Source: Ipomoea triloba
Taxonomy: Eukaryota > Streptophyta > Magnoliopsida > Solanales > Convolvulaceae
Direction: 5' to 3'
Assembly: GCF_003576645.1 (NCBI RefSeq)
Contig: NC_044919.1
Location: forward strand, 19,138,890-19,202,889
Length of the DNA stretch: 64,000 nucleotides
This document shows positions 2,064 to 61,779 of this stretch, in pieces. Made by a program: the position numbers and the translations under genes. Every line of letters begins with the position of its first letter. The stretch's first letter is position 1. The notes under the pieces were generated by a model. That model was not told the origin of the DNA, searched no databases, and worked only from the letters and a program-made list of their open reading frames with translations.

Positions 2064-2255
2064 GCAAGTTTAGGTACCCAAACTTTGGGTCCTGGTGGGT
2101 TAGTGAGTTTAGGCATCCATTTATACCTTGTGCCCATTATTCCAGGCCTAGGCGCAATGTAGCCATTGTACGTTTGATAATTATAAGGAATGCTAGCAAA
2201 GGTTTTAGGCCTCTTTGGTGCATAAATCAACTTAGGTAGAGACTTTTCGACCGGC

Positions 2256-4289: not shown

Positions 4290-4388
4290 ATTAAAAAATT
4301 ATCTCGTGCTTTGAAAATATTTAAGAAGATTTTTCAAAGAAGGATCTCTAGGCAATATAAACAAAGGTTTATATCGATCAGAGAACTC

Positions 4389-4400
4389 GCTCTGATACCA
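4389..4400 (-). promoter_or_regulatory. Copia primer-binding site (tRNA-iMet)
   Basis: On the minus strand this reads TGGTATCAGAGC, complementary to the 3' end of initiator tRNA-Met. It sits two bases inside the LTR boundary at 4403, as expected for first-strand priming. Confidence 0.9.
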
Positions 4401-4402
4401 AT

Positions 4403-6290
4403 TGTTGGTCCCAAGGGGATGGGGTACAAGTCTAGAGGGGGGGGGNNNNNNNNNNNNNNNNNNNNNNNNNNNNNNNNNNNNNNNNNNNNNNNNNNNNNNN
4501 NNNNNNNNNNNNNNNNNNNNNNNNNNNNNNNNNNNNNNNNNNNNNNNNNNNNNNNNNNNNNNNNNNNNNNNNNNNNNNNNNNNNNNNNNNNNNNNNNNNN
4601 NNNNNNNNNNNNNNNNNNNNNNNNNNNNNNNNNNNNNNNNNNNNNNNNNNNNNNNNNNNNNNNNNNNNNNNNNNNNNNNNNNNNNNNNNNNNNNNNNNNN
4701 NNNNNNNNNNNNNNNNNNNNNNNNNNNNNNNNNNNNNNNNNNNNNNNNNNNNNNNNNNNNNNNNNNNNNNNNNNNNNNNNNNNNNNNNNNNNNNNNNNNN
4801 NNNNNNNNNNNNNNNNNNNNNNNNNNNNNNNNNNNNNNNNNNNNNNNNNNNNNNNNNNNNNNNNNNNNNNNNNNNNNNNNNNNNNNNNNNNNNNNNNNNN
4901 NNNNNNNNNNNNNNNNNNNNNNNNNNNNNNNNNNNNNNNNNNNNNNNNNNNNNNNNNNNNNNNNNNNNNNNNNNNNNNNNNNNNNNNNNNNNNNNNNNNN
5001 NNNNNNNNNNNNNNNNNNNNNNNNNNNNNNNNNNNNNNNNNNNNNNNNNNNNNNNNNNNNNNNNNNNNNNNNNNNNNNNNNNNNNNNNNNNNNNNNNNNN
5101 NNNNNNNNNNNNNNNNNNNNNNNNNNNNNNNNNNNNNNNNNNNNNNNNNNNNNNNNNNNNNNNNNNNNNNNNNNNNNNNNNNNNNNNNNNNNNNNNNNNN
5201 NNNNNNNNNNNNNNNNNNNNNNNNNNNNNNNNNNNNNNNNNNNNNNNNNNNNNNNNNNNNNNNNNNNNNNNNNNNNNNNNNNNNNNNNNNNNNNNNNNNN
5301 NNNNNNNNNNNNNNNNNNNNNNNNNNNNNNNNNNNNNNNNNNNNNNNNNNNNNNNNNNNNNNNNNNNNNNNNNNNNNNNNNNNNNNNNNNNNNNNNNNNN
5401 NNNNNNNNNTTTCTTCTGTGTCTTTACGTCCTTATATATGAGAGTAGAAGAATAGTTCCGTTGGAGGGAAAACTATTCCGTTTGAAATTGGTCTCCCACG
5501 CCGAACATGGGTCTTTGCACAATTTCAGCATTTTTCATGGAGTAGTGGTCTTGTAACTTGAGCCTTTTGTTTTGTAGTGAATATTCCATATTCCACTTTC
5601 TTGAGTTCATGCTTCACTTGCTTCTTTTGGATAAAGTTACTCTTTTTATGTTCCCATCATTCCTTGTTTGGGGAATCTGACCACTTCAGGATTGGTGCAC
5701 TTCTTGACCGTTTGTGGTGGAGGTCTGACGTGTCATCCACTTCCGTCCATTTTGAAACCTCCCGCTCAGCACCTCTTCAATATTTTATCTCCATGATATT
5801 CTTCTTCTCCAAACTTAGAGTATTTTATCTGCACATGTTGACTAACATTCAGCCTCTTGGAGAAGTGCCGGTTTATCGAGACCATAAAAGATGTCTCGAC
5901 CACTTGATGTTTCAATCCCATGTATCGAGAGGTCTATCTCTCGAATATTCTTTACGTCTCGAACTCGATAGGTATATCGAGAGGTCCTTACCTCTCGAAC
6001 TTGGCTTGTGTCTCGAGACTTAGTTGATGTCTCGTAGACCCTTATTCCTCCAGAGTTGTCTCGTGCCTGCTTCTGATCTATCTGTTTGCTTACAACACGA
6101 AAACTTCTAAGTTGTTCAAACAAGTTTACCTTAAGCTTAAATATTTCCCGAGTTGAGCTCAAATTACCCGGTTGTATTTTCGCTCTTAGTTTACTTATCG
6201 AACTTACATTGTTTTGCCTATGTATCGAGACTTGGGGATTCTTACTTAACAGTTGGTATCATCAAAACCTATTACATGATGTTCCTAACA
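4403..6290 (-). repeat. Long terminal repeat of the Copia element (upstream LTR), with gap
   Basis: The inner edge is clear: TGTTGG at 4403 (plus strand) is the inverse of the LTR terminal CA and abuts the primer-binding site. The outer edge is ambiguous between CTTAACA ending at 6251 and CCTAACA ending at 6290; both would give a TGTTA start on the minus strand. Bases 4446-5409 are N. The segment 5870-6030 is dense in TCTCGA/TCGAGA words. Confidence 0.65.
4446..5409. other. Assembly gap (964 N) inside Copia LTR
   Basis: A run of N preceded by a G tract. No sequence information; apparent open frames through it are meaningless. Confidence 0.99.
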
Positions 6291-6299
6291 TGCACATCA

Positions 6300-11070: not shown

Positions 11071-12660
11071 CTCCCCACAAGGGCTTGGTGGGCTTCAATG
11101 ACCACATCAAGGACTTCTTTCAAACGGTTGATCATTTTGGCTATTATTTTGTAGATCACGTTACATAATGCTATTGGCCTTAAATCACTTACTGGGTTGG
11201 GGTAGACACCTTGGGACCCAATACAATTGTTGCATCATTCAAGTCAGTAGGGAATCTCCGGGTGTGGATGCACTGTAATACAAAATCAGATATATCATTG
11301 CCTATCACAGGCCAGAAGTGTTGGTAGAATGCTAGATTAAAATCGTCTAGTCCTGGAGATTTTTTGGGTGCCATGGAGAATATGGCTTGCTTGACTTCTT
11401 CTTGAGTATATGGTTCAGTTAGGATGTTGTTGTGTTCTCTGGTGATTGTCGAGTTCCAGCCTTCAAGAATATCTGTGCCCTGTATGCCTTTGCTAGTAAA
11501 AATGTCCTGAAAATATTTGGAGATTAGATTGCTCATGTCATTGCCCTCGACCCATTGTCCATTATTGTTCTTTAGTTTTAGGATAGTGTTTCTACATCTT
11601 CTATTTGAGGCACTGAGATTTTGTGTTGCGATCCATTTGTTTGAGCCAGTGTTGTTTGGCCCCTGTTTCCAAAATAAATTCAGTTTATCAAGATTGCTTT
11701 TGAGTTCCCCATCTAACCTACGGATTTTAGCATAGGAGGTTGGTATTGGGTTTTTACATAATCTGTTGATTCGCTCCTGGAGCTCTCTTATGTCCCTGTT
11801 TAATATGCTACCATAGTCACCACCCCAGTTATGAAGATCTTTCCGCAAGTTTCGAGTCTAGCTAATAGGTATAAGATTAGCTTTGGATGTAGCCCAAGAG
11901 TGGGTTACGACATCCAAGCAGCCTGTGTCTTCCAGCCATGCATTTTTTAGCATGAATCGTCTTCGTCGTCTGCGGTACGGTCTCGTGGCTTTTCCGTATC
12001 AATGAATATAGCAGAGTGATCACTTGTGATTGTGAGCGAGTGCCATGGGATAAAGGGAGCACCCGTCTGCGTTTGCTACTACTCTATCTAGGCGTTCGTT
12101 CCTCCACCCATGATTGCGTTCCTTTGCCCCTTTCCTAGGTGAATTTCCTTGCCTCCATTCCTATATCTAAAAGGTAGCAGTCGTTGAGGACAACAGTGAA
12201 AGCTTTCATTAAACTTTCTGGATGACAGTGGTGACCTATTTTCTCATTGAGTGATGAGATATCGTTGAAGTCACTAGCCACTAACCAGGGTAACTCAGAA
12301 TTATTCCGGAGACATCGTAGTAGCTCCCAGGAGAGGTGTCTGCGGTTCCTTTCCGGATAGCCGTAGAAGCAAGTTACGTGGTTTTTTGAGTAGCTGAGTA
12401 AACTGATGGAATTTTTCTCTTTCCAGAATATTGCTAAGCCACCTCCGAGTCCCCCACCGTCCACGTAAAAGACACCTTAGAATCCTAGTTTGCTCTTTAG
12501 CCTATCTGCATGGTCATGCCTGACTTTAGTTTCAGTTAGAAAGATCAGCTTGGGTTTCTTCAATTCTTGGCTTCCATGGCCATCACTTCGTGAATTGTCC
12601 GTGGGTCACCTAAGTCATGGCAGTTCTAACACAAGGTGCTCATTGCGAAGAAAATGGCAT
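11040..12660 (-). mobile_element. L1-type LINE fragment (endonuclease and reverse transcriptase), decayed
   Basis: On the minus strand, 12655-12490 is in broken frames and matches the start of a plant LINE endonuclease (TLCQNCHDLGDPRTIHE). The frame 12464-12135 has GGLAIFWK and WLVASDFNDI, the endonuclease motif around the catalytic Asp. Region 12110-11880 continues it with frameshifts (ERLDRVVAN, WLEDTGCLDVV). The frame 11848-11189 is the linker and N-terminal reverse transcriptase (KKSPGLDDFNLAFYQHFW), and 11159-11070 carries IYKIIAKMINRLKEVLD in another frame. The palm motif and 3' tail are missing: the element stops where the Gypsy fragment begins. ORF1 is absent. Dead copy. Confidence 0.85.
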
Positions 12661-17145: not shown

Positions 17146-19629
17146 TCATTCAAACATCCCAACATTCTCATCTTCTTCTACCTCTTCATATTCATCAACA
17201 AGATTTACAACATTTGAATCTTCACAAGACAAATTTGATGTTGAATAACTTGAATTTGAACTTTCTTCAGTATCTACATAAATATTCAACACAAAAGATA
17301 AATAAGAATTAAATTACAAATTTACAGTACACCAAAATATCAACTAACTAAAATATAATCCAATATTTTATTATTTTGTAAACAAACATAATAACTTAGT
17401 AACTTACCAATAACATAACCATGCAACCAATTTCTTGTGCAAATAAGAGCTTGCACTTTTTCAGGCAAAGTACAACTCCTGTACTTGGTGAGCACACGAG
17501 CACCAATAGAGAATGCCGACTCCGATGCAACAGTAGTAATTGGGATAGCCAAAACATCTCGTGCCATCAATGCAAGTGCAGGATATCTATGCATACGTTC
17601 TTTCCAATAATCCAAGATGTTCAAATCCTCATAGTATGCATATTCAAGTTTTGGCTCCTCCAAATAAATTTCCAATTCTGACTTTCCAATAGTCTTAACA
17701 GTTCGACTATCATACTTTTTAATTGCCTACATTAGTTAGAAATTAAAATTTATAACATTAAACATGTTATCACAATCACAAATTCAAATATAGAAAATAA
17801 ACAAAATATATATAAATTGAAGAGTTAGAACTTAGAATACTTACTTCAAATGCTCTTTTACCCTTAGTTTTACCTAAACTTTCACTTTGCATACTTGAAG
17901 ATGTGACTTGAGGTTGGGAAGGACGTGGAGTAATAATATTCGCATAAGCACTAAAAAGCTTGTTCAACTTTGTCTTCAAAAGTGAAACCATATCTTGAAC
18001 TTTAATTGGATCACTCTCAACCTCCTCATATAAATGCTCCAATGATACAAGCTTTATCCTTGGGTCAAAAATAGCTCCAAATGCAAGCACTAGATTATAT
18101 TCACTCCAATACTTATCAAATTTGTCAAACATCTTTCTATATTCACTCCAATACTTATCAAATTTGTCAAACATCTTTCTACACATTCCACTTATCAAGA
18201 CATCTTCATTATGCAAATTTTCTTTCAACACACTTATCAAGACATCTTCATTATGCAAATTTTCTTTCAACATACTTATCAAGACATCTTCATTATGCAA
18301 ATTTTCTTTCAACATACTTTCAATCTTCCAAACTTGCATAAAATATAGATTTGAGGTAGGATAGGAAGAATCGGAAATCAAATTTGTCACCTCATAAAAT
18401 GGCTCAAGAAACTCACATATTTTCTCACCTCTTTTCTATTCTTCATTTGAAGGGTAAAATTTATAATGTCTATCGTTCAATTGAAGAGAAGCAAATGCCC
18501 TTTTATACTTAATAGCACTTTCCAACATTAAATACGTAGAGTTCCACCTAGTAACCACGTCCAATCTCAAACCAATACTAGTATCAATGTTACCAACTGC
18601 ATTTATACATTCTTCAAACTTCTTCATCCTACCCTCAGAACCTTTCACATATTTGACAGAGTCTCTAATTTTATGCAAAGCTGAAGTAACCACTTTCAAC
18701 CCCTCTTGAACAATGAGATTTAATATATGGGCTGAACAACGAATGTGGAAAAACTCTCCATCACATAACAAACTATCATGCAAAGCTAATTGCTCCTTTA
18801 AAATGTCTTGCATAGTATCATTACAAGATGCATTATCTAATGTCAAAGAGAACACCTTTCTTTCAATTCCTCATTCTTTCAAAAATCCATATATTTTTGC
18901 AGCTAATTCAACTCCTGTGTGTGGTGGGGGCATCTTAGCAAAGCAAAGTATCTTACTATTCAATTTCCAATTCTCATCAACAAAGTGCCCAGTTAAGCAA
19001 ATATATCCTTCACTAGTGCATGCAGTCCATACATCAGAAGTTAAACAAATTCTATTTTTGATATTTGCTAACACTTGTTTAAGGTTCTCTTTTTCTTGAT
19101 AGTAGAGTTTGGTAATGTCAGACACAAGTGTGTTTCTAGAGATACATGGCACATCAGGATTCAAATACTTCTGCCATTTTCTAATACCATCATACTCAAC
19201 AAATGAAAATGGTAAATCATGTTTGATGACTGCAGAAGCTAACAACTCCCTAGCAACATTTAGATCTACTTTCCTAGATGCAAGTTTGCCTTCATTATTA
19301 ACAAACATTTGCCTAAGGTCATGATACTTCAACATTCTACATATCTCTCTATGTCTCCTTAATGTAGAAGTTCCATTTTCTTTTCCCCCAGATTTAAATT
19401 CTTTTAAACAGCCATTACATTTTGCCCTTTGAATACCATCTTCACCAAGTCCAATCTTTGTAAAAAAATTCCACACATCAGAGGTAAGTTCTTTAGATCT
19501 ACCTTTCTTTGTAGTAGTACTATCCAATCCTGGCATTCCATCAACAGCATCATTGTCAATGGTATTAGTAGTTTGGTTCACAGCAGTTTGGTTCACAGGA
19601 GTTTGGTTCAAAGAGACAGAATCCATCAC
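17146..19629 (-). pseudogene. hAT transposase (BED finger, RNase H-like, C-terminal dimerisation domain)
   Basis: Three exons can be placed: 19629-17845, 17726-17408 and 17273-17146, with donors GTAAGT and acceptors TGTAG/ATGTAG; all join in frame. The N-terminus carries a BED zinc finger (CNGCLKEFKSGGKENGTSTL ending HREIC). The RNase H-like core follows (LTSDVWTA, TLDNASCNDTM, WNSTYLMLESA). The C-terminal hATC dimerisation domain is unmistakable ([20 protein letters not shown], then [10 protein letters not shown]). It would cut and paste hAT elements in the nucleus. Two stops interrupt exon 1 in the same frame: TGA near 18872 and TAG near 18437. Both sit where a Trp codon would fit, as from TGG decay. 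Exon 1 also contains two adjacent in-frame 42-bp tandem expansions. Not functional as read. Confidence 0.88.
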
Positions 19630-20421
19630 GATTCACGAATAATACACGGATAATCTAACAGTAGAGTTTAACTCGCTGTCAAACATACTATATAATCTAA
19701 TAATCAAAATATATAAACACAAATACACAATGTCTAGTCAAACATACTGTAATATTTATAGATTTCTAGTCACAATCACAATATATATAAACAAATTGTA
19801 AAATGTAAATCTTAAAATCTTACACACACTGTAAATCTTAAAATTCGTAATACATTATATATATTAGTAATGTATTAAATTAGTAATATATAATAAACAC
19901 ACTGAAGCACTGTCATTCTCATAATGTAATATATAATTTTATAAACATTAAACTAACACAGTGTCATAAATTATAATGTAATATATAAACAGAAAAAGAG
20001 AAAATAAATAACCTGTTAATCAATGATCCTAGATGTAGCCACGTAAGAGTGTAGGACGCCTGAATTGCGAGTTACCGGACGGAGCTCACGGAGGTGGTCA
20101 CTTGAATTGCGAGTTGCGATTGCAATAGCCGATAGCGGGAGAATGGGAGATGCGAGATTGGCAGATTGGGTTTTCCATTTGCGTGAATGAGTGAATTGAA
20201 GATTCGACAATTCGATGAATGAGATTGAGAAAGAGAATGCGGATTTCGACTACAGAGAAACGGCAAGGGGCCTAGGGCTGTGCTACGCTGCTGTCTTGGA
20301 CTCTCTGCGAATTAAAACTAAAAAAAATAACAATAATCCTAATTCAATTCAAACTAAAAATAACGAAATATAATTCTAATTGAATTAAAAAAAAAACTGG
20401 CGGGCTGGCGGGCCCCCCCCC

Positions 20422-21500: not shown

Positions 21501-23543
21501 TTAAATAATTAATGACCTGCGTTTATTTATGTGAAGTAGTACTAGTAATAACAACAACCAAAAGAACAATAAAATTTGCCCTAAAAAGCTTCCAACCACA
21601 GTAGACTGTTTCTTGTGACCTAGCGTATTCGCGAAGAGATGATAGTAAGCCAATGCATCCACATTTTCCAACACCTTCACCGCTTTGCCTTGCTTTTCAT
21701 CAATAACCACTTGCCCTGTTGCAGATACTTTGATTTTCTTGATGGCAAATTTTGGTTTCAAGGCAGAAACATCGCCTGCTACAAGTACTGATCCTAGGAT
21801 TTCCCCAACAAATATTCCCTGAAACCAAGATTAGATTGAAATGATGGATCGATAAACATGCAATGTGTGAATTCAATCAATTAATTATATATGTTACTAG
21901 CTAGCTAGGAATATAATCGTCCAAGTTTAATTTTAATTTACCGTGTGTTGATATCTGGGATGCTTCATTTGCAAGTGATGTAGTGTTGACAGCAGACGTT
22001 TAGCAAAGGCTGCTTCAGGAGTTTTGTGTTGAATGAGTGTGTGTATGATTTGAGGGAATGAAGTAAGTTTGCGCTGTGTGGCAAGGGGAATGAGAGTGAT
22101 ATTGAGTTTTGAAGAGAAAAGTGTTTTTGCAGCCAAAGGATCCAAAAACAAATTGAGTTCTGCCTCTGGAGGTAGAAAGTTGATGTGCCCCCCACCCCCA
22201 ATAACTACTACTTCCTGCACCCAATCAAATCTCATCTCGATGATATGAATTTCCAAGAAATGAAATGAAAGCTAGATTTTTAGTAGAACCAGAAAAGAAA
22301 TGCATTATATTGGCAGCTGACAGAAATATATATATATATATATATGTACTTGCCTGGATAACAGATGACATATTCTCACCAGCACCAACAATCTTTGCTA
22401 TGTTGGTCAGTGGACCATTTGTCAAAATGGTAATCTTGGATTTGGGATGAAGAGATTTCACCACTGACTCCCACACTTGTAATGCAAGAGGTTGTCGTAG
22501 TTCAGGGTGATCAGTATCTCTTGGAGCTCCATATTTCACACAATTCTCTGCTGTATATCTGCAAATAAGATAGATAGAGGAAAGAATGATATGATCGAAG
22601 AAAACAGTCTATGAGGAAGAAACTAATTAAGGATGGCTTTTTAAGTTTACCCCCGAGGGCTACGAGGCAAATCACGAGCTAAACCGTATAGAGTATCTGA
22701 GTCAATAAATCCACCACTACCATGTGGGATAACCTTTTGATACTTGCAGTCTCCAACTTTAGGGATGATTGGATCTGCAATGTTCATTGGAAATACATCT
22801 CCCAGGCCTACGGGAATGTCATCACGACCCATCATGTGTAACACATCATAGATTACATCAATTGTTGCTGCATTTGCCCAACCAGTTGGGCTCACCAGAA
22901 TTGCCTGCAGGGTATGTATGTACAAAAGAATATATAGTTAAGCTGCTAGGCAAATCAAAGTATGAAAGGGATCGGAGGATTTGACCTTGAGATTCATATC
23001 TTCCACAGGAAGTTTAAGAAGATAAAAGAGAGCTAGGAAGTCTCCAGCACTCATGTCCATGTCAAACACAACATCTTTTCCCCAAACATCTGGTTTGTAA
23101 ACTACTTGTTCATAGCTATAAGGATGATATTCTGTTGCAAAACTGAACCTGCTACTTTGTTCATTGCGGTTTATTACCTGCACATGCAGTGGATATCACA
23201 GTATTGTTATTTCTTAACCCACTCTATCTCAACAGAAAGATAGTCCCTCGTCTATAAAAAAGTTATGGTTCTATATATAAAAATATAATCATAGTAATAC
23301 AAAAGTAGACAGAAGATTTACATCCAAAAAGTTGATATAGAAGGCTCTGTTTAATGGGCTGTTAACATCAGGGTTGGGTTTTGCTTTTACTGCAACGAGA
23401 ACAGGCACACCTTCTTCACCCTCTGTCATCACCGTATACCCATCCTGATTAATATAAACAATAATGTATGTGTTAAAAAATTATTGGCGCAAGATTTACA
23501 ATATTATAATAATAATGAGATGATGAGTTGATTGAGCATTTGA

Positions 23544-23583
<40 letters not shown>

Positions 23584-23771
23584 TCATGATCAGGTGCGGC
23601 CGTGCTCTCCCGACCGTGCGGTTCACACCACTCAATGTTACGAAATACACCACTCAATGTTAAGAAACACACCACACAAATATGCACTATGGTGTGTTTC
23701 TTAACATTGAGTGGTGTATTTCGTAACATTGAGTGGTGTGTGTCCGCACGGGAGAGCACGCGCACCTGAAA

Positions 23772-23802
<31 letters not shown>

Positions 23803-26800
23803 CACGTACTGTGCATTTTCCAGTGCCATTTTTGACAAGGCAAAATGGATCACGTAGACCAGTCTGAACATGTCCACTATGACAACCATTTCTGCTTAGC
23901 CTCAACTTTGGAGTCTTGCGACCATCAAACAATGGATTAGAGCCATCAGACACACCATAGGGCTTGTTCGAGGTGATTACAGTAATGTTCATGTACTTCA
24001 TTTCTGCAAACTCATTTTGGCCTTCACCATTTTGTGCCTGCTTACTCATAATTGAAGTAGCTACACCACACATAAATACGTCCCACATGAAGTAGTTCTG
24101 CATTGCATGCTAACATCATCAGTAACTACATACAAAGCTATGATAAGGAATATGAATTTGTCTCATATAAGGAAATATTAATACATTGACCATCATAGGC
24201 ACATTATATTGCCGAACCATGCACAATTGCTTGTTCATATTAATCTCAACAATCTTAATTAACTTACATATTTAATTTGGATAGGAGCATGCATCTTACC
24301 GCGTAGAATTGATCATCATTGGCAAAGGCAGTATCGCGGGCCATTTTCAAGGACTTGAAAATGTACTGTGACTCATATGTGTGTTGATTGCGCTCAAAGT
24401 TATCAAAGAATTCTGCAGTAATGGGAATGGTGTTTGTGGCATCCAATGGAACAAGAGTAACTGGAATTCCAGAATGAATAACCTACAACGTAACACACAC
24501 AATAATGATCACAATCTATATATCTAGTGTTTAATTACGGGGAAAATTATATTATTTCTCGAATATCAAAAAAATCCACATTATACGTACCACCAAACCA
24601 CTATCACCACCATTTATATTATTATTGGAAATGTTGTTATATATATTCCAACAAAACACACGAAGACGTTTTTCTGGTATGCAACGTAACCAAACACTGA
24701 AAATGAAACCGTTTTCCTAGTTTCAAACACATCCTAAGTCAAACAAATTAAGCGAGATAGATGCATGTATGTATGTATCACCTGGTATGCAGCAAACGGA
24801 TCCATAAAAATGTTGTACTCTGCATAAGGATTACTAGCTAAATCAGTGAAGATATTTCCAATAATGTCACCTCCTTGCCCAGCTGCTCGCACACTGCCAC
24901 CCATCACATATATGTGCTCTACATTTTGTTTCAAATGAGGATTGCTCATGAGAAACATAGCCAAGTTTGTAGAGACTCCGATGATAAAAACAGTGGTCGG
25001 CCCAGCAGAAATTGTGTCCATCAATACTTGCTGAGCTGTGGGCTGCTCAAGTGGCCAATATCTTCTCTTTCCCTATTTTTAATTAAATTCCAATTTACAT
25101 GCACATCACTCTATAGACCAAAATACCCAAGTATGTGCCAATGAAATTATATATACCTGAGGGAGGAACCTCTTTCTTAAGCCAAAATTTGTGTCCACGT
25201 CTAAACGTCCCCCACGCCCAACAGGAATACTTTGTCTGTATCTACAATATCCAACTGTACCAACTCCCTGATCAATCAATTCTGGTATATATTAGCTAGG
25301 TACATGTTTTAATCAGATCAGGAAATTTTAAAACGGTGTAAAAAAAAAACCATACATGATACATCCATGAGAAATGACTTTTTTGCTGGTTTATTATAGC
25401 TTATTTCACCATTATTAGTTGTTTTACTTGGTTAAACAATCAATATGAATATTTGATTAATTAACTTTTTGTAATAACTTATTGCTCCAAAATGTTAAAA
25501 TTCAAAAATATGCTCAAAGCAACTTTTTTTATCAACTTTTTGAGAAAGTCATTTTGCATGTAATCAACTATTAGCCAATTTACCAAACACTTTTCTACAC
25601 TCAGCTAATGCTATTAATTAGTTAAACCTACTAACTCAATCAACTAACAGCTATTTAATAAACACCCTCTTGTTTTGATACATCAATTTCTAAATGTATC
25701 TTCTTCCCCAATTGGAAAAGAAAAAAAGGTGGGTTTTGCAATGTGGTGGAAGGTAGTTCTTCATGGTTTTGCAATAGAGATTTTATTATATTAGTTAGTA
25801 GAGATGGTCTTAATTAATAGACTGAAATACTTTTTACAAACTATGGAGTATTAATTTAAGAAATAAGCATTTAATTTCTAAAAATATCTACTTATTCCAT
25901 ACACAACAACAACAACAATATTATTACATAATTTCTAATACATGATAAAAACATGTAATGCATTTATATAAGCAAACTATTCTAGATACATGTTTTAATC
26001 AGATCAGGAAATTTTAAAACAGGATAAAATTTATAAAAAAAAAAAAATCCATCCATGAGAAAAGAATATTTTGCTCTATTTGTTTAGCCTTATTTGACCA
26101 TTATTAGTTGTTTGACTTGGTTGGTCAAACAATCAATATGATTATTTAATTAATTAACTTTTTGTAACAACTTATTATTTCAAAATGTTAAAATTCAAAA
26201 AGCTGCTCAAAGGAGTCAAAGCAACATCTTTTATCAGCTTTTTGAGAAAGTCATTTTGCATGTAATTAGCTACCAATCAGCTAATTTACCAAACATTTGT
26301 CTATGATCAGCTAATACTATCAACTAGTCAAACCTACTAACTCAATCAACTAACAGTTATTTACCAAAAACCCCTTATTTTGATACTTCAATTTCTAAAT
26401 GTATCTTCTTCCCCAGTTGGAAAAGAAAAAAAAAAGGTGGGTTTTGCAATGTGGTGGCCGGAAGGTAGTTCTTCATGGTTTTGCAATAGAGATTTTATTC
26501 TATTAGTTAGTACATGTTCTATGAGATGGTCTTACTTAATAGACTGAAATACTTTTTAAAAACTACGGAGTATTAATTTAAGAAATAAGCATTTAATTTC
26601 TAAAAACATCTACTTATTCCATACACCAATCGTTATACCCTGCACCACGGTGCACATAGCAATGTGCACCACGTACGTAAACGATGTCGTTTCAATGTTA
26701 GTGGACGCGGACGCGAATGACTACAGGGAATTCATTATCTACAATACACATAATTATTATTTAGAATACACGGAACGTTTGTCTAGAATACACATAATAT

Positions 26801-29800
26801 TGACACAAAATACACAGATGTTAGTAGACACGGACGCGAATGACTCCAGTGAATCATAATCATTATCTAGAATACACAGAACGTTTGCCTAGAATACATA
26901 GAATGTTTGCTCAGAATACACAGAATATTGACAAAAAATACACAGAACTCATTCTCCTAACATTCGAATGCACAACAAACACATCACAACCTATGTTAAT
27001 AACATGAATACACAGAATATTGACACAAAATACACAGAACTCGTCCTCCTAAACATTCGAATACACAAACACATCACAACATGTGTTACTAACATGAATA
27101 CACAAAACGGTTGCATCGAATACACAGAACGGTTGCCTAGAATATACAGAATGATTGCTTGGAATATACAGAATATTAACATATATAAATACAGAGATCG
27201 GCCGAAACGGGAAACGTGATTTCCAAAAAAACGGGCGGTTAATTTACAATGCTCAAAACGACGTCGTTTACGTACGTGCACGGTATAATTTGCCTCCATA
27301 CGCAACAACAACAACAATAATATTATTACATACATTTCTAATACATGATAAAAACATGTAATGCATTTATATAAGAAAACTATTCTAAAAAAAATCATAA
27401 ATAACCTAATACTAAACCCGTGAAAAATCAGTTATTTCTCATGAAATGATAATAACTTATTCTCAACAATAAGAATGCTCCATCCAAATTACTATCGGCC
27501 ACTAAATTTGCTAAAGTCACAATAGGGCAATAGTTGAAGTACCAAACTAGCAATGTAGTCATATTGAAAATTGAGAAACAAATGTGAGAATGCCATTGTA
27601 TTTGGAAAATAAAAGTAAATTCAATCAATTTAAAAGTGTTTTTGATTTACGGTAAAATCTACTGTCGTTATCCAAAGGCGCATTATATTACCGGTGAAAC
27701 CGGTCTTGTAATTCTAACTAACAAATGACCACAAAATAATAAATTACCTATGTTTTTGGAGGATACATGCATAAAGAAGAAAAGATGAAAAGGGCACCAA
27801 ATTAAATTCAATTCATTGTGGATATTAGTTCCCTTCATCCTTGTATATAAGTTCACAGATACACACAGCATATCGTATTATTCATTCTTCTTCTTCATTT
27901 TAGTCTGTAACAAATATCTTTGCATTCAATAATATTCAGTTCTGTTTTCCTCTTCACCTCACTGTGCACAATCCGACATGGTATCAGAGCTCGCTGGTGA
28001 GGGAGCTATGTCACCGCAGCTTCCGGCACTGGCGATTCACGCTGAGCTGCGCATTTGTCTACGGCGATCTATCCACATAGGATCCTTGGCTGGCCAACAG
28101 TACTTCAAGGGCTGTAGTTTGAGCATTCCTGAGAAGAATCAGTGGATGATGCTTTGCTCCGTAGCCTTCACCAAGTCAACAACAATGTTGCTCAAATTCT
28201 CCCCCTCCATTGCGAGTAGTAGTTCACGGAGCAGATCCGTGAAGATTGTGAGCACAGAGCTCGTTAATCCTATGCTTACAACCTTCAACCGTAGTCCATG
28301 GAGCAAATCCATGGAAAGTGTTGGAGAAAGCATGAGCACAGTGCTCATTAGTTCTACATCAGTGGCCATTGTCGTTCACGGAGTAGATCCGTGGAAAGCA
28401 CGAGCACAGAGCTCGTTAATCCTTCTTCAGTGGCCTCACAACAGTATATGTAACAGATCCGTGAAGAAGAGTTGGAGTATGTGGAGCAGATCCATAGATC
28501 TCCGATGTTATCTGTTGTTTATCGACGTCGTGATTGAGGATGAGTGCAAGAGGACTTGGATGCGAGGCCAAGCGGAGGTTGATGGAGTCCGTGTTTGGTT
28601 CTCTAGGTGGACGCCGGAGTGGTACGCAAAGGAGGATTTGCCATTAGCCTTGGTATGGATTCAGTTGCTTTTTCTGTCTATTCAATTGTTTCAATTTGAT
28701 ACGATTGTTGCAATTTGTGAACCGATTGGGAGGGAGATTTCCCTACGTTCTGCAACTATTCATAGAACAGAGCCGAATTTGGCCAAAGTAAGAGTTGAGA
28801 TTGATGTAACGAAGCATGTGAGTGAGAAAATATGGATTGAAATTGACAATGACTGGAGAGGTTTTTGTCAATTTATTGTAATGGAAAAGGTTTCTGAAGT
28901 CACTGAAGAGTTCTATGATTCTTATTGGAGTGATCTCATAGAATCTCATCAGCCAGAGGAGCTCATACTGAGTAATAATCTTTATGTTGTGGAAGGCATG
29001 CAGTTTGATCGTAGCCACATCTCCCCTCACTTTGTTACTGACAATGAGAAGGTGGTTGTTGAATATGAAAATTGCAAGCTAATTCTGGTTGACAAGAAAA
29101 TAGCAAATGCAAGGGATCTAGTTAATGTCTTGAAAGAAGCAATTAGAGGAGGATGCCCCATTATAGTAATTGTAGAAGACATAGAGCAGGAATCTTTTGC
29201 AACTCTAGGTCACTAAAACTTGCTGTAGTAAAGGCCCCTAGCTATGAGTGCTTTAAAGCTGTGGAAGCTGAATCCCTTAGGAAGATTCTTAGGCAGATTA
29301 CTTCCGTTGACTTTGGATTTATAGCAGCAGCAGGAAACTCTGAGGCTGCTGGGAATTCAGAAATTGTATTTGAAATGAAGAAATGCGAAGCTTCTGTTTT
29401 TTGCTATGTGAATGATATAGTGCTTGCCATATTAGAGCTTCTCAAAGTGCATGAGCAGGTTCTCTATGTAAACATTAACATACATCATGGTGATGGTGTT
29501 GAAGAGGTGTTGACTCATGAGACAGTTAGCTGCTTTGATTCTTATTGTAACGTGCACGGCTGGTATGTGAGTGAAAGGAGATTTACTTATATGTGCAAGC
29601 TAATCATAACTGTGAGTGATCTGTATGCAAAGAATAGGGTGTTTATCTACAGGTTGATAAGGCTGTCTGCACTTGAGCTTATGAAGAAAGCTAATAAGAT
29701 GGCTGTTGGAATTGGTTTGATTAAGTTGATGAATCCTATTGTCGTGAATAGGTACAATAGATTTTCTTCAAAATGGACTTACTCTTCATGCCAGGTCTGT

Positions 29801-32800
29801 CGACTTTGTCAGCAGCAGGATGAAAGACCAACCTGTTCTGTATGTGAAACACCAAAGAATCTTTGGATATGCTTGATTTGTAGCTTTGTTGAATGTGGAA
29901 GGTGTGAAGAAAAACATGCCATTAGACATTGGAGTGATACACAGCATCATTATTCTCTTGATTTAGAGACACAGCAAATTCGGGATTATGTAGGGGACAA
30001 ATATGCTAAATTTGTACATGCTGAGACAATTGCTGACAAAAGTGAAAGTTGTTATTCAAAGAGCAAACATGATCAGGGTGCTCTGGCAAAGTGTGTAAAT
30101 GAATATGCAGATGATCACATGATCAGTGTGGAACCAGAGGTGTTCGGAGGCATGCTAACATGGCACTCTCATTCAGTCTTCTCAAGGCCAGAGTCCTCCC
30201 TTACACCCTTTCTCTCTCTTTCATTCTAAGCTGGACATACAAAGTCTTGCATGTTCCAGCTTACGAGGGGGTGTTGGAGGATACATGCATAAAGAAGAAA
30301 AGATGAAAAGGGCACCAAAGTAAATTCAATTCATTGTGGATATTAGTTCCCTTCATCCTTGTATATAAGTTCACACAAGGCATAGCGTATTATTCATTCT
30401 TCTTCTTCATTTTAGTCTGTAACAAATATCTTTGCATTCAATAATATTCAGTTCTGTTTTCCTCTTCACCTCACTGTGCACAATCCGACAATGTTGCCCA
30501 TGACTTACCAACTCAAGTCAAGAAGACTAAGAGACATCAATTTAAAAGAGTTAATTCTATTAGTCTTAGATTTATAGTTGACATTCCATTTTTAGTCATT
30601 TTTTCCAAACCATCCTTCTTTGGTCCTAGTATTATTGTGGAATGACCAATTTTGGTCCCCCATCAACAAAACTGTTTAAATTTCGTAAAATATAAGGGCA
30701 TTTAGGTCTTCAATTATGATTTAAAAAAATAAAAATAAAAATATAATGAGTTAACACACTTTATATAAAAATGATCAAAATGTTATTGTATTTAACGATA
30801 TTTCTACGATTTTGTTGACAAAGGACAAAAAATGGTCATCCCATAATAATACTAAGACAAAAATAGATGTTCTGAAAAAATGACTAAAAGTGAATTGTCA
30901 ACTATAAAAATAGATGTTCTGAAAAAACAATCATATTTATTCTTCGAGTCACGCAAATGGGCAAAGAATGCTTGTCAGCAGCTTTAATTAAGGCAGGTCA
31001 GTAGCTTGTCTTAATTAATTATTGAATTAATTTATGGGAAAATGGAACTGTATCCGAGTTTAGTCCTTCAGTTATTTGCGAAGTGTCAAATTTAGTCCCT
31101 GGTTGTTAAATTTGATGGAAAAATTTTAAAAATATTTAAAATTTAAGGGGTAAAATAGGAAATTCACATTTTATTCTTCGTTCTTATATCAAAACCACTA
31201 CTACAACATTGTTTTTCACCTCCTAGCCTCTTATTTTCAAGATTCTTCAATTTTAAAAGCAATTTATATGACTTGTAAGAAAACTGACTCTTGTATAACA
31301 AACTTAAGACTAAGACAAACAAAGAAACACATGGTATAAGAATTGGTTTGGGACACCCTCACGTCTTTCATGAGAATTCTTAGAGAACAAGAGGTTGGTA
31401 TGGCATGAGTTGGAGTCTTCAATTAAGCCTGCAGCAAAGTCTTTGGGTTCACCCACTCAAATTTTTCTAAAATTAAAGAAATATATTTCCATTTTCCATA
31501 TACTTACTTTTCTTCTCCCAAACTTACTTGTTCTAAAAATAAAGAAGTATATTTCCATTTTCCAAATAAAGAAGTATATTTCCATTTTCCATATACTACT
31601 TTTTTTTAAACCATATACTTACTCTTTTTTTTTTAAGGTAAACGTAGCTATTCCATTAATTCATAACATAAAACGTTTACAACAATTATCAATGAAATGG
31701 TAAACCATTCCTTACAGTCAGACATAGAAATAACTTTTCTAACTATGCTATAGAAAACTTGAATCGCAGACTGTTTCATAACTATGAAGCTATGTTCCTT
31801 CAGGGAACTTAAAGCTTCATCAAAGATCTGGGTCTTCGTCATCATTCTTTTTTGCTCGCCCAGGATAAGATTAACACTTGTCGAAACCAAACTAAACGAT
31901 TTATGCTAATGAAAATGAAAAGCTCGTGAAAGTAACGAGAGGAAAAATGCTCGCCGTGAAACTAACGAGAGGAAAACACACTAATAGAGAAAATAAAAAG
32001 TGGTAAAGCCAAAGTAGGGTTGGGAGTTCAAGACTACCAACACAAACCCCAATACCTACCTACTATTATTTTAAGAAAACTGAAGAAGAAGATCTGTGGC
32101 GGTAGTCGGAGGCGGACGAAGCTGCAACGGTGGTCGGGGCGGAAGAAGAGCGAGAGCAAACATAGAAGGTGACCAAAACCGCCGGCTCAAAGCTCCATTA
32201 GAGCTCCGGCCGGAGGCCGGCGGTGGAAGCCGAAGTTGAGCAGCAAAGAAAGACGTTTGGTTTTAGAGAGAAAAGGGAGGCATCATTAGGGTTTTTCTTT
32301 AATTTTAGAACTTGTCATTTAATAAACCATATACTTACTTGTTCTCACTTACGGAGTATTATTTTTCTTGGAGAACGAAGCACACGCTTGAAATACGTAA
32401 TATTATGAATTTGTACATATATTCAAAATGTGCTTATCGATACAATTTGTATAAGAACCATATCACATGCATTTTTATATATAGTGTGTACAACTTTGAT
32501 TTATATTTTCTATTTTACACTTTTAATGATAATCGACTTTTAAAATATTTCACTTTTCGTATAAAACATTTAAAATGCACTTAAAAGTAATAGGGTGATG
32601 TATGATGAAATTCTCAATCATTAAAATAGAAAAGAATCAAAGTCAAGTATGTATTAATTACCTGCTCAATTATAGGTAGATATCCACCTACATTTGGTAA
32701 AATGGTACCATCGTCAAGTATTCCGTCCTCTCCTCCCACACCAACAGAAATATCATCGCGCCCCATCATATAAAGCAAATCATATATGTGATTCACAGAA

Positions 32801-41797: not shown

Positions 41798-42264
41798 TAG
41801 GTTGAACCTTCGGGAATTAGGTCGAAGCCTAGGTTGTATGGTCTCGTTGTAGGTCTAGGATTGAAATTCGGAGAATTCGATTTTCAAGGTCAGAGTTGAG
41901 TCAGCCTAAGTTTGCCAAGACTGAGCCTAAGTGTGAGTTTCTGGAACGGAGTTGGAGACCAGGCAGCATAAAAAAGGGGCACCTCATCATTTGTATTTCG
42001 CGAAATCTCCCGATTCTAGAATGCTTTGATCAATATTTGTGTATCTTCATGTGCGTTAATCATTGCTTATAAGTGTTGTGAGTAAGCATGATAGTATAGT
42101 GCGTTCCTAACTGTTATGCCATAGTTGAGATACCTTGTTGATGAGCAAGACGAAGTGGATGTTAGGAATTGCTGGATAGGACTTGAGTAGCTACTATACT
42201 AACTGCGTAGCTAGCTAACTCCTTAAGAGCTTTTATGCTTCAAGAACTAACTTGAAACTGTCGT

Positions 42265-45200
42265 TTGGTGAAGATGCCGCCTAGACGAAATATACCTGTC
42301 GGTCAGGGCGACGAGATATCGGTAATGGACCGCATGGCTCTCGCGATGGAACAAATGGCTGGGTTTATGATGACTCAACAAGTCCAGAATCAAAATAACA
42401 GACAGCCGCGAGTTCATTTTGCAAAAGCCATAGCAAGTAGGCAGTCACCATACTATGCGGGTGAAGAAGACCCGGTAATCTTGGAAGAATGGATTAGGAC
42501 GTTTGACAAGCTGCTCGATGCAGTCAACTGTCCTACAGATCAGCGAGTATCTTCCGCCGTGTATTATCTGACAAAAGCGGCAGACAACTAGTGGTCAACA
42601 GCTGGGCCCGACTTGCTGCAAGACCCAGACTTTGGCTGGGAGGAATTCAAGGAAGAATTGAGAGGACAATTCTACACAGAAAGGATTAAGGGAATTAAGT
42701 GTGAGGAATTCCTGCGATTGAAACAAAAGGGAGCAACTGTGCAGGCCTATTATGATCAGTACGTGGAGCTGGTGAGGTTTGCCAGAACATTGTGCCTGAC
42801 GAAGCCAGCAAGGCGAGGAGGTTCGTATGTGGACTGGATTGGGCCGTGAGAGGGGCGATTGCACCGTTTATGTGCACTACTCTCAAGGAGGCATATGACA
42901 GAGCATCCGATCACTACCAAGTGTACCTGGATCAACAGGAGGTTTACAGCAAGAATAAGAGGAAGGTGGATGATAGACAAGGGAAGTTCAAGCCGGACAA
43001 CAAGAAAACCAATCAGGGAAGATTCAATCCGATGCAAGGGGAAAGGAAGGGAGGAATGAATCAGAGGAGAAGTTCAACTTGCCGGAGGTGTGGACGGGAT
43101 CACCTCGGTGAAAATTGCCAAGGGGAGAAGATAAGATGCTTCAAGTGCGGGTTCTTGGGGCACAAGTACTACGAGTGCCAAACTAGGATGGACAATTATC
43201 GGGACTCCTCTCAGAAAAACAGTCAAAGAGGAGGATTCGGTGGGAACACCAGCCAGAGGCCCGCGGAGACAAGCAATGGAGGAAGCAACTCTCAACAGGG
43301 AAACCGGGGGAGGCCGGCTAACGTAGCTCCAAATCCCACCAACAAAGGGAAAGCACCCGTGGGAGAAAGCAGCACAGCAAACCAAGGCAAGATCTACGTC
43401 GTTAACAGCAAGCAAGCTCAGGCTAGCGACGTTGTGACCGGTACATTTCTTGTTAACTCAGTACCTGGCTTAGTATTGTTCGATACAGGAGCTACCAATT
43501 CGTTTATATCATCTACATTTGCGGATAGATTAAAGTTAAGGCCTACTATTGAGTTAGATTTGAATGTAAGAACTGCCTCGGGAATAGTAGTGGCCTGTAA
43601 GGAGGGATATGACAATATCACAATAGAAATAGCGGGATCCAACTGTCCCGGAAACCTCATTCGTTTCGACCTAGAGGGTATTGATGTGATACTAGGAATG
43701 GACTGGTTGGATAAACATAAAGCCCAGATAGTATGCAGTGAGCGAAAGGTTGTCTTGCGAGGACCGAAGGGGAGGAGGATATCCTATCGAGGAATGGAAA
43801 AGCAACCTGAACCAAGGTTGATGACGATGCAGAGGCTGATGAAGTACGCTTGCAAGGGGTGTGAAGTGTACCTCTGTTTGATGCAAGAAGCTGGAATGGA
43901 AGAACTTGAACTAAATCAAATCCCGGTGGTGCGTGAATTTCCCGATGTGTTCCCAGATGACCTCACGGAAATGCCGCCGGAAAGGGAAGTGGAGTTTACT
44001 ATCGACCTCGTACAGGGAACCGCACCACTCTCGAAGGCGCCTTATCGAATGGCACCAAAGGAGATGGAGGAGTTGAAGGCTCAACTGGCAGAGTTATTCG
44101 AGAAGGGATTCATCAGACCAAGTGTGTCACCTTGGGGCGCACCGGTACTATTTGTAAGGAAAAATGATGGAAGCCTAAGACTGTGCATTGACTATAGAGA
44201 GCTCAATCGAGTCACAGTGAAGAACAGATACCCATTACCCAGGATCGACGATCTGTTTGATCAACTGAGGGGAGCAGGCGTGTTTTCAAAAATTGATTTA
44301 CGGTCAGGGTATCACCAAGTGCGAGTCGCGGAACAGGATATTTCTAAAACCACATTCCGGACTAGGTATGGGCACTACGAATTCACAGTTATGCCGTTCG
44401 GAGTGACCAACGCACCGGGGACTTTCATGGACTTGATGAACAGGATTTTCCTTCCATACCTGGATAAGTTCATTGTTGTCTTCATAGATGACATTTTGGT
44501 TTATTCTAAGACACCGGAAGAGCACGAAGAGTATCTCAGGACGACGTTACAAATGTTGAGGGAAAAGAAACTTTACGCAAAACTTTCAAAATGCGAATTT
44601 TGGAAAGAGGAAGTAGCATTCCTGGGTCACATAATCACCAGGGAAGGAATAGCAGTGGATCCAACTAAGATAAGAGCCGTAATAGAATGGGAACCACCCA
44701 AATCGGTTACAGAAGTCCGAACTTTCTTGGGATTGGCAGGGTATTACAGGAGATTTGTCAAGGATTTCTCAAAGATAGCAATACCTTTGACCAATCTGCT
44801 TAAGAAGACTACCAAATACAGTTGGAGTGGAGAATGCGAGCATGCGTTCTAGGAACTCAAGAAGAGGTTAACAACTGCCTCAGTGTTAACCTTACCTGTG
44901 GGAACGGAAGGCTATGAACTATACACAGATGCGTCTCACAAAGGACTGGGATGTGTCTTGATGCAACATAGAAGGGTAATATCTTATGCATCTCGTCAAC
45001 TAAAACCACACGAGGCTAACTACCCAACCCACGATCTGGAACTAGCAGCCGTGGTGTTTGCCCTCAAAATCTGGCGACATTATCTTTATGGAGTCACTTG
45101 CAAGATCTTTACGAATCATCAGAGCTTGAAGTACATCTTCACTCAAAGGGATCTTAACTTAAGGCAAAGGAGATGGTTGGAGTTAATCAAGGACTACGAT

Positions 45201-46856
45201 CTGGAAATCCAATACCAAGAGGGTAAGGCAAACAAAGTGGCAGATGCTTTGAGCCGAAAGCCAAATCATGCTCTCTGGGTATTACCTGAACAATTATGCA
45301 AGGATTTTTAGAAATTCAATCTGGAAATAACAATGTGTGGTCAGGCAGAACAAGAGATGAAGCTATATTACCTATCGGCCACTCCAGCCCTATTTGAAGA
45401 GATCAAACAAGCCCAAGGAGAGGACGACTGGGTAAAGAATATCAAAGAGAAGATGGTGGATGTAAAACAGGGTCCATTTGAATTGCATCCGGATGGGAGC
45501 ATGAGATTCAAAGGCAGATGGATCATACCTGCAAGTTGTAAGGAATTAATGAACCAATTAATGAGAGAAGGTCACAACACACCTTATTCTGTTCATCTAG
45601 GAGGGGACAAGCTGTACAAAGATCTGAGGCAAAATTTCTGGTGGATGGGCATGAAGAAAGATATTGCGGAATTTGTTGCTAAATGCTTGAATTGCCAAAA
45701 GGTTAAGGCAGAGAGAAGTAAGTCGAAAGGGTTGCTACAACCATTGAAGGTTCCTCAATGGAAGTGGGATTCAATCTCCATGGACTTTGTGGGAGGATTG
45801 TCAAGGACAAGAGCCGGAAATGACCAAGTATGGGTTGTTGTTGATCGGTTAACCAAGACAGCAAGATTTATTCCGATAAACAAAACCTGGTCAATGGAGA
45901 AAATGGCAAGAGCCTACATCAAGTATGTGGTTAAATATCACGGGATAGCACGCGATATTATTTCAGACCGAGATTCACGGTTCCTATCAACATTTTGGGA
46001 AACATTACAGGTAGCCATGGGTACGCAACTCAAGATGAGCACAACATTTCATCCTGCCACCGATGGTCAAACAGAGCGAACAATCCAAACCTTGAAAGAT
46101 ATGCTCAGAGGTTGTGCACTCGATTTCCAGGGTTCGTGGGATGAGCAGTTGGATCTAATTGAATTTTCATACAATAACAGCTATCATGCCACTATAAGAA
46201 TGGCTCCTTACGAAGCATTATATGGGCAGAAGTGTCGGAGTCCACTATGTTGGAGTGCCAAAAGTGATGCTGTTATTCTTGAACCCCAGTACTTACAAGA
46301 AACCATTGAGGCAATCAAAGTGATTCAGGGGAGAATGAAAATCGCACAAGATCGCCAAAAGTCCTATGCTGATTTAAAGCGACAATTCATAGAGTACCAG
46401 GTGGGAGAGAAGGTGTTATTGAAAGTCTCACCCACCAAAGGGGTCAAAAGATTTGGAAAGAAGGGGAAATTGAGCCCTCGTTTTATAGGACCCTATGAAA
46501 TTTTAGAAAGAGTGGGAAATTTGGCATACCGGTTGGCTTTACCAATCGAACTGGACCGAGTACATAACGTGTTTCATGTCTCACAATTGAAACGATATGT
46601 ACCTGATGTATCTCATGTACTGGAGCCAGAGGGACTGACAATGGATGACTCATTGACGTATGAAGAAAGGCCAATTCAAATCTTGGATTCTAAAACCCGA
46701 GACACAAGGAGGAAGTCGATCAGGATGGTCAAAGTTCAATGGTCAAACCATAGCCCAGAAGAAGCTACCTGGGAATTGGAAGACGCGATGATGGAACGAT
46801 ATCCAGAGTTGTTCGACTCAAGTAAGTACGAGTCAATCTACTTGTTATGTGTCTAA
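42265..46856 (+). pseudogene. Gypsy gag-pol polyprotein with chromodomain
   Basis: Gag occupies about 42265-43060 ([36 protein letters not shown]). Two zinc knuckles follow at 43079-43175 ([27 protein letters not shown]). The protease has [10 protein letters not shown] at 43476. Reverse transcriptase spans about 44030-44560 with [27 protein letters not shown] and the catalytic FIDDILVYS at 44481. RNase H follows ([13 protein letters not shown]). Integrase has the HHCC region near 45590-45700 and the core with MDFVGGL, SDRDSRF and DGQTER. The chromodomain is near 46660-46820 (VQWSNHSPEEATWELED) and would guide integration to marked chromatin. Breaks: TAG at 42589-42591, a one-base deletion near 42788, TAG at 44850-44852 and TAG at 45309-45311. 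Otherwise the frame is well kept. Confidence 0.93.
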
Positions 46857-61658: not shown

Positions 61659-61779
61659 TTAGCTAGGATTACGTACCTAATAATTATTCTTGTCATTTGT
61701 CCGCACCACCGTCTCGTCACTGTTCGTGCCGCTGAAATCATGCAACAAGGTGGTATCAATTGGGATCAGTTCGCGTCGA

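Follow-up and report, generated by a model that had tools for sequence, protein, structure and literature searches.

The stretch of DNA analysed here (the window) comprises 64,000 nt of the Ipomoea triloba genome, C4:19138890-19202889 of a 462-Mb, 17-contig assembly in which the intron-bearing source genes named below were also found. At window positions 27755-30490, on the forward strand, lies an element with a pair of long terminal repeats (LTRs) and an interior containing fragments of several host genes. It is very probably a non-autonomous LTR retrotransposon, one of an Ipomoea family, that carries spliced host exons as cargo and has moved as a unit. Its parts are as follows (ORF, open reading frame; fractions give identical positions in alignments to the genome).

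27755-30490, forward: whole LTR element (LTR pair, primer-binding site, purine tract and target duplication)
27750-27754, no strand: left target-site duplication, ATGTT (sequence read; presumes that the 5' LTR edge has lost one base)
27755-27978, forward: 5' LTR, 224 nt (repeat comparison)
27844-27851, forward: TATA-like TATATAAG in the 5' LTR (by eye)
27978-29216, forward: ORF1, 412 codons from the ATG at the primer-binding site (leader, repeat block, DUF4283, PIR2-like, Cpn60)
27979-27990, forward: primer-binding site TGGTATCAGAGC (sequence read)
28219-28495, forward: tandem array of four hairpins with 5-nt loops near 28231, 28303, 28383 and 28486 (fold and covariation)
28479-28796, forward: DUF4283 fragment (Pfam E 2.4e-8; related stretch in several other members)
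28894-28976, forward: PIR2-like E3 ligase fragment (75/83 to C13, 3-nt gap), preceding Cpn60
28973-29239, forward: chloroplast chaperonin-60 beta (Cpn60) fragment (98/106 and 122/132 to a C11 gene)
29147-30229, forward: ORF2, 360 codons, stop to stop (g, HDAC, i, j, BRAP and ankyrin in a single frame)
29240-29377, forward: module g, no source assigned, common to other members (member comparison)
29378-29507, forward: class I histone deacetylase (HDAC; HDA19-like) fragment (75/78 and 50/54 to a C4 gene)
29508-29767, forward: modules i and j, no source assigned (member comparison)
29767-30005, forward: BRAP2/BRIZ zf-UBP fragment (29/30, 105/115 and 102/106 to a C3 gene; zf-UBP Pfam E 9.9e-17)
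30009-30113, forward: ankyrin-gene fragment (63/70 and 31/36 to C3:13545113; Ank domain in the source)
30211-30271, forward: conserved 3' tail ending in the purine tract (comparison with other members)
30265-30271, forward: purine tract GAGGGGG, the end of the 3' tail
30272-30490, forward: 3' LTR, 219 nt (repeat comparison)
30491-30495, no strand: right target-site duplication, ATGTT (sequence read)

The direct LTR pair, the primer-binding site (which we take to be of the initiator-Met type), the purine tract and the short target duplication are those of an LTR retrotransposon. Between the two LTRs there are 5 substitutions over 219 aligned sites (Kimura two-parameter distance 0.023), besides a gap of 6 nt and an offset of one base at the 5' edge; at a substitution rate of 1.3e-8 per site and year this distance gives an insertion age of about 0.9 million years. 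In the two long sense ORFs, Pfam detected neither the gag nor the pol families that characterize an autonomous LTR retrotransposon, and a zf-CXXC match was insignificant. Terminal-repeat retrotransposons in miniature (TRIMs) have LTRs of about 100-250 nt and a very short interior; the window element agrees with them in LTR size and in lacking gag and pol, but its interior is 2,293 nt. Large retrotransposon derivatives have LTRs of several kb, whereas those in the window are about 0.2 kb. As in the maize element Bs1, intronless fragments of several host genes lie between the LTRs.

At least five or six host sources can be recognized. The Cpn60 piece matched chaperonin 60 with a best E of 1e-24 in a comparison with solved-structure sequences, and the HDAC piece matched both the Pfam Hist_deacetyl (E 1.9e-10) and histone deacetylases of solved structure (best E 1.1e-16). 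The PIR2-like module is followed by a Pfam PIR2 domain in another member, L043, and the DUF4283 assignment rests on Pfam and on sharing among members. Like g, i and j, the stretch just before the 3' tail has no source assigned; a genome search with i and j matched family members and C1:27039917 only.

Relative to four source genes, five introns are missing from the element, each precisely at its GT-AG borders: one in the Cpn60 piece (at 29078/29079), one in the HDAC piece (29455/29456), two in the BRAP2/BRIZ piece (29794/29795 and 29901/29902) and one in the ankyrin piece (30078/30079). Because of these exact losses we conclude that spliced mRNA was captured. Multi-gene mosaics are typical of Pack-MULEs and Helitrons (excerpts of PMC13317346), and a similar DNA-level capture by recombination or repair might be considered. 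Yet it is contradicted by the five exact splices, no inverted repeats occur in 27500-30800 (Helitron ends were not searched for), and the 5-bp target duplication, primer-binding site and purine tract suit an LTR element; capture at the DNA level almost certainly did not build this interior.

Much of this had been read by a first-pass annotation from the letters of the window. The LTR pair, primer-binding site, purine tract and ATGTT duplication that it placed around 2.3 kb are borne out (given the one lost base), as are the interior without gag or pol, the similarity to Cpn60, HDAC and BRIZ proteins and the intronless origin from host mRNA. Its order of DUF4283, Cpn60, HDAC and UBP zinc finger holds, all four having been found by Pfam or by sequence comparison with solved structures; it missed the PIR2-like and ankyrin pieces, and its total of four sources was too low.

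The whole chimera occurs a second time, at C3:27175803-27179687, flanked there by its own target duplication, CCCTT. The interior of this second copy is 94% identical to that of the window over 2,281 nt. A run of N separates this interior from the 3' LTR; we had considered 1.1 kb of extra cargo in this copy and rejected it, since the stretch reads N. Because the window element has its own target duplication and the second copy has another, the chimera has been mobile. In Ipomoea batatas, 90% of ORF1 is matched at 91% identity by the gene model P0002.

LTRs and cargo are incongruent between members. The LTRs of the C3 copy are only 71-72% identical to those of the window (global alignment), with identity increasing where LTR and interior meet. 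Of the LTRs of other members that were compared, the middle one of L018 comes closest to those of the window (84 and 82%), and it flanks different cargo. L018 itself (1786-6291; C2:14658285-14662790) is a single insertion with duplication CATTT, three LTRs and two interiors of differing cargo; with its middle LTR of another type, it resembles a recombinant dimer.

These copies belong to a family. Genome searches gave at least 41 matches for the LTR query, at least 107 for the interior and at least 40 for the leader, and about 30 members were sampled. Members have in common the ends of their LTRs, the repeat block and the two margins of the interior (its first 60-75 nt and its last 60 nt); the cargo varies. 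Above Pfam cut-offs we found NTP_transferase with LbH_GLGC, Aminotran_1_2, GATase_6, LCAT, HSP70, REX1B, QWRF (L036, L041), HVA22 (L041), PIR2, Aux/IAA, GTP_EFTU, PPR (L049), ankyrin (L046), PSMD12/CSN4 and Arm (L062, in a fetched part without leader). By their domains, the NTP_transferase/LbH_GLGC, GATase_6 and GTP_EFTU cargoes may be read as AGPase, GFAT and EF1a, respectively. Below the cut-offs were MAP65, CREG, QWRF in L052, ankyrin in L020, PPR and Alfin in L009, DUF4283 and BRAP2 in L032, and chaperonin in L036 and L041. Exact 5-bp duplications flank eight of ten distinct insertions examined (the window element, L009, L010, L013, L015 = L016, L017, L018 and L020). L015 (C16) and L016 (C15), in opposite orientation with 100% identical cargo, were counted once for their common flanks; judged by these, the pair is one insertion in a segmental or assembly duplication.

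The family appears to extend to related species. A leader-peptide query from a sister copy matched 11 proteins, every one of them from I. batatas or I. trifida, with names including GFAT, ABC transporter, histone deacetylase 19-like and K+ efflux antiporter. I. batatas and I. trifida gene models with the family leader or repeat peptide (P0002, P0010, P0121, P0123, P0124, P0240 and P0244-P0247) bear the names of captured host fragments; several Ipomoea models called RuBisCO-binding protein, histone deacetylase 19-like, GFAT or ABC transporter appear to be family members.

Cargo lies in sense orientation. Sense ORFs had a Pfam match (E<=0.01) in 25 of 30 cases, and in 7 of 10 in a further set, against none of 20 antisense ORFs, which were also shorter. 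When 22 member interiors were compared all against all, each listed shared piece had the same orientation. Spliced cargo in sense would also result from successive LINE-type (long interspersed nuclear element) retrocopies of host mRNAs into an LTR element, and the DUF4283 piece may derive from LINE ORF1, with which this domain is presumably associated. But the sequence read shows neither a poly-A tract nor an inner duplication at the joints, the pieces derive from internal exon segments and not from 3' ends, and four-letter overlaps occur at two joints; together these make LINE-type insertion very improbable.

Cargo modules are shared between members. It could be that one reverse-transcription event joined all the host pieces and that partial copies reflect later losses: both full copies have the same DUF4283-PIR2-Cpn60-HDAC-BRAP-ankyrin order, and partial copies retain the order of those modules they hold. 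Against this, g, HDAC, i, j and DUF4283 each occur singly beside unrelated cargo (for example HSP70, QWRF, HVA22 and PPR) in members with other LTRs, and we consider a single event unlikely. Because other members hold subsets of the modules beside other cargo, the chimera was probably built stepwise and reshuffled.

The first-pass annotation had also proposed that the chimera transposed, and this is confirmed by its own duplication and that of the second copy; copies with distinct target duplications, which it proposed to count in the same genome, do exist. Both of its grounds for refutation fail: the interior is similar to Cpn60, HDAC and BRIZ proteins, and related LTRs and interiors with target duplications of their own occur elsewhere in the genome. 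As to its proposal that several mRNAs were joined by template switching during reverse transcription, the mRNA origin stands, stepwise joining is the more probable course, and the switching would be the mechanism outlined below. Its comparison with Bs1 was apt, and the soybean TRIM GmaRetroS15 is closer in design (excerpts of PMC4717578).

Several observations weigh against our interpretation. ATGTT as a duplication presumes the lost base at the 5' LTR edge; in L011 only 4 of 5 flank letters match, and the duplication of L012 was not resolved. Shared letters were looked for at two joints, one of them imperfect (TAAT at PIR2/Cpn60; TATG, then three further bases, at BRAP/ankyrin); the remaining joints border source-less pieces. 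No autonomous partner was present among the fetched members; with no pol in the two long ORFs either, we make no Ty1-copia assignment. The 8.6-kb L012 was considered as such a partner and rejected, as it has no pol ORF among its ORFs of at least 90 codons. L012 (732-9523; C14:12801931-12810722) has large internal repeats, a fragment of PSMD12/CSN4 and a gag-like match below threshold.

The repeats at 28219-28495, whose hairpin-forming nature the first-pass annotation overlooked, are a common feature of the leaders. The window block 28205-28500 folds with a z of -5.7 against 200 shuffles, and 29 of 32 leaders have at least one unit with a 5-nt loop, mostly GCAGA. Because units were picked by the loop and inner three pairs, only pairs 4-10 test structure. 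Pairs 4, 5, 6, 7 and 8 are formed in 64, 46, 56, 56 and 51 of 69 unique units (units that are related and hence not independent), levels reached by 0, 0, 7, 85 and 25 of 5000 shuffles; at pair 4, T-A, C-G and T-G interchange. Pair 9 (17/69) is at shuffle level and pair 10 (15/69) barely higher (221/5000 shuffles). Sliding one arm lowers the paired cells from 273 to 123-200 of 345. The same letters also encode an SRSRSV-like peptide. Rfam gave no match in 27700-30550 at E up to 0.1. The fold of 28205-28500 also shows a second hairpin type, with GAGC..GCTC stems and ACAGA-like loops, in alternation with the first. The hairpins may serve as a packaging or dimerization signal.

Cargo also tends to be joined in frame. 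ORF1 starts at an ATG (27978-27980) that spans the border between LTR and primer-binding site, and in L041 a single 668-codon ORF from the leader holds DUF4283, the weak chaperonin match, QWRF and HVA22. Counting ORFs of at least 60 codons, 23 of 29 joints of neighbouring fragments were in one frame, 16 of them inside one unbroken ORF (binomial P 5e-7 at a chance level of 1/3), a count biased upward because short ORFs were unscanned and modules are common to members. For the Cpn60-HDAC joint the C3 copy was used, because an internal deletion near 29208 shifts the frame of the Cpn60 piece in the window. Without five joints marked weak, 19 of 24 were in frame (P 5e-6), a marking that left in some sub-threshold domains (L032 BRAP2, L052 QWRF). 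A count independent of ORF length used 17 of the 22 interiors, after removal of one duplicate and of four whose leader frame was ambiguous (C12_13353500, C5_18544032, C8_12399891 and C8_3002217, the last with its best frame free of stops). In 14 of these 17 the frame of the leader was the one with fewest stops (P 5e-5); by successive thirds this held in 15, 10 and 8 of 17 (P 4e-6, 0.03 and 0.17), a signal from non-independent members that weakens with distance and loses significance by the last third. In the C3 copy, the 2.28-kb frame of the interior contains a single stop.

Long frames raise the question of whether the fused frame is a new gene, its chimeric protein selected for sequence. Between the window and C3 copies the ratio of nonsynonymous to synonymous change (Ka/Ks) is 0.51 for ORF1, and against the source genes it is 0.22-0.34 for the HDAC, BRAP and ankyrin pieces, at few sites. 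But false frames yield similar ratios between the copies (ORF1, 0.53 in the true frame against 0.75 and 0.59; ORF2, 0.73 against 0.64 and 0.74), copy-to-copy differences are even across codon positions, the true frame of two other copy pairs gives 1.55 and 1.01, Cpn60 and PIR2 give 0.98 and 0.90 against their sources, and the window copy is frameshifted. The ORF1 hint is not borne out by the false-frame controls and the two further pairs; codon comparison between copies detected no amino-acid selection, and a selected new gene is distinctly unlikely.

We suggest the following mechanism. The common parts (LTR ends, primer-binding site, hairpin leader, 3' tail and purine tract) resemble cis signals, and the element RNA would be packaged and copied in trans by another, probably copia-type, element. 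Reverse transcriptase would switch onto co-packaged spliced cellular mRNAs and sister-element RNAs, so that exon fragments would pile up in sense while cargo and LTRs reassort between members, and the chimera would then transpose as a unit. The four-letter overlaps at the PIR2/Cpn60 and BRAP/ankyrin joints count in favour of this reading. More tentatively, as a possibility that we would not yet favour, the shared parts may form a packaging-signal chassis whose hairpins load the RNA into the particle of another element, the in-frame bias then reflecting a filter for frame openness (acting through translation or through escape from nonsense-mediated decay, ahead of packaging) rather than for protein content.

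Elsewhere in the window, ORFs resemble by eye copia (189-4298, reverse; 61736-63394, forward), gypsy (42256-46856, forward), LINE (11189-12476, reverse) and hAT (17340-19632, reverse) genes, and nucleoside hydrolase gene exons (21933-25072, reverse).

LTR elements with captured exons are a known kind. Bs1 has segments of three host genes and a hybrid frame (excerpts of PMC13317346), whereas the window element has at least five or six sources and the Ipomoea family has many members, differing cargo and module exchange. Gene-carrying TRIMs of soybean and Medicago, such as GmaRetroS15, are small and non-autonomous, with exon-only fragments of up to three genes and 5-bp duplications; 30 elements of 1.2-1.4 kb form seven subfamilies (excerpts of PMC4717578). 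The window element is like them in being a non-autonomous LTR element with exon-only fragments and a 5-bp duplication, but it measures 2.7 kb and belongs to one family with a hairpin leader, in which cargo is reassorted and tends towards in-frame fusion. The chimeric LTR elements Veju and BARE-2 are ascribed to abnormal template switching (excerpts of PMC13317346), but their added sequence comes from other elements or unknown DNA rather than many spliced host mRNAs. A cross-family survey reports many LTR elements with captured host genes, and no single modular family of multi-gene chimeras appears in it (excerpts of PMC3726574). Our literature search, outside which most subscription papers lay, gave no report of such an Ipomoea family. 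What appears to be new is the scale of the family, the exchange of modules, the array of hairpins and the bias towards in-frame fusion.

Single chimeric retroelements such as Bs1 have been regarded as curiosities. With a family such as this, the rate and mechanism of RNA-based exon shuffling, and the selective filter acting on it, would become open to measurement, and its hairpin array is a candidate packaging signal, amenable to testing, for non-autonomous LTR elements of plants. Should the packaging-signal chassis prove true, the family would be a natural machine selecting in-frame exon shuffling.

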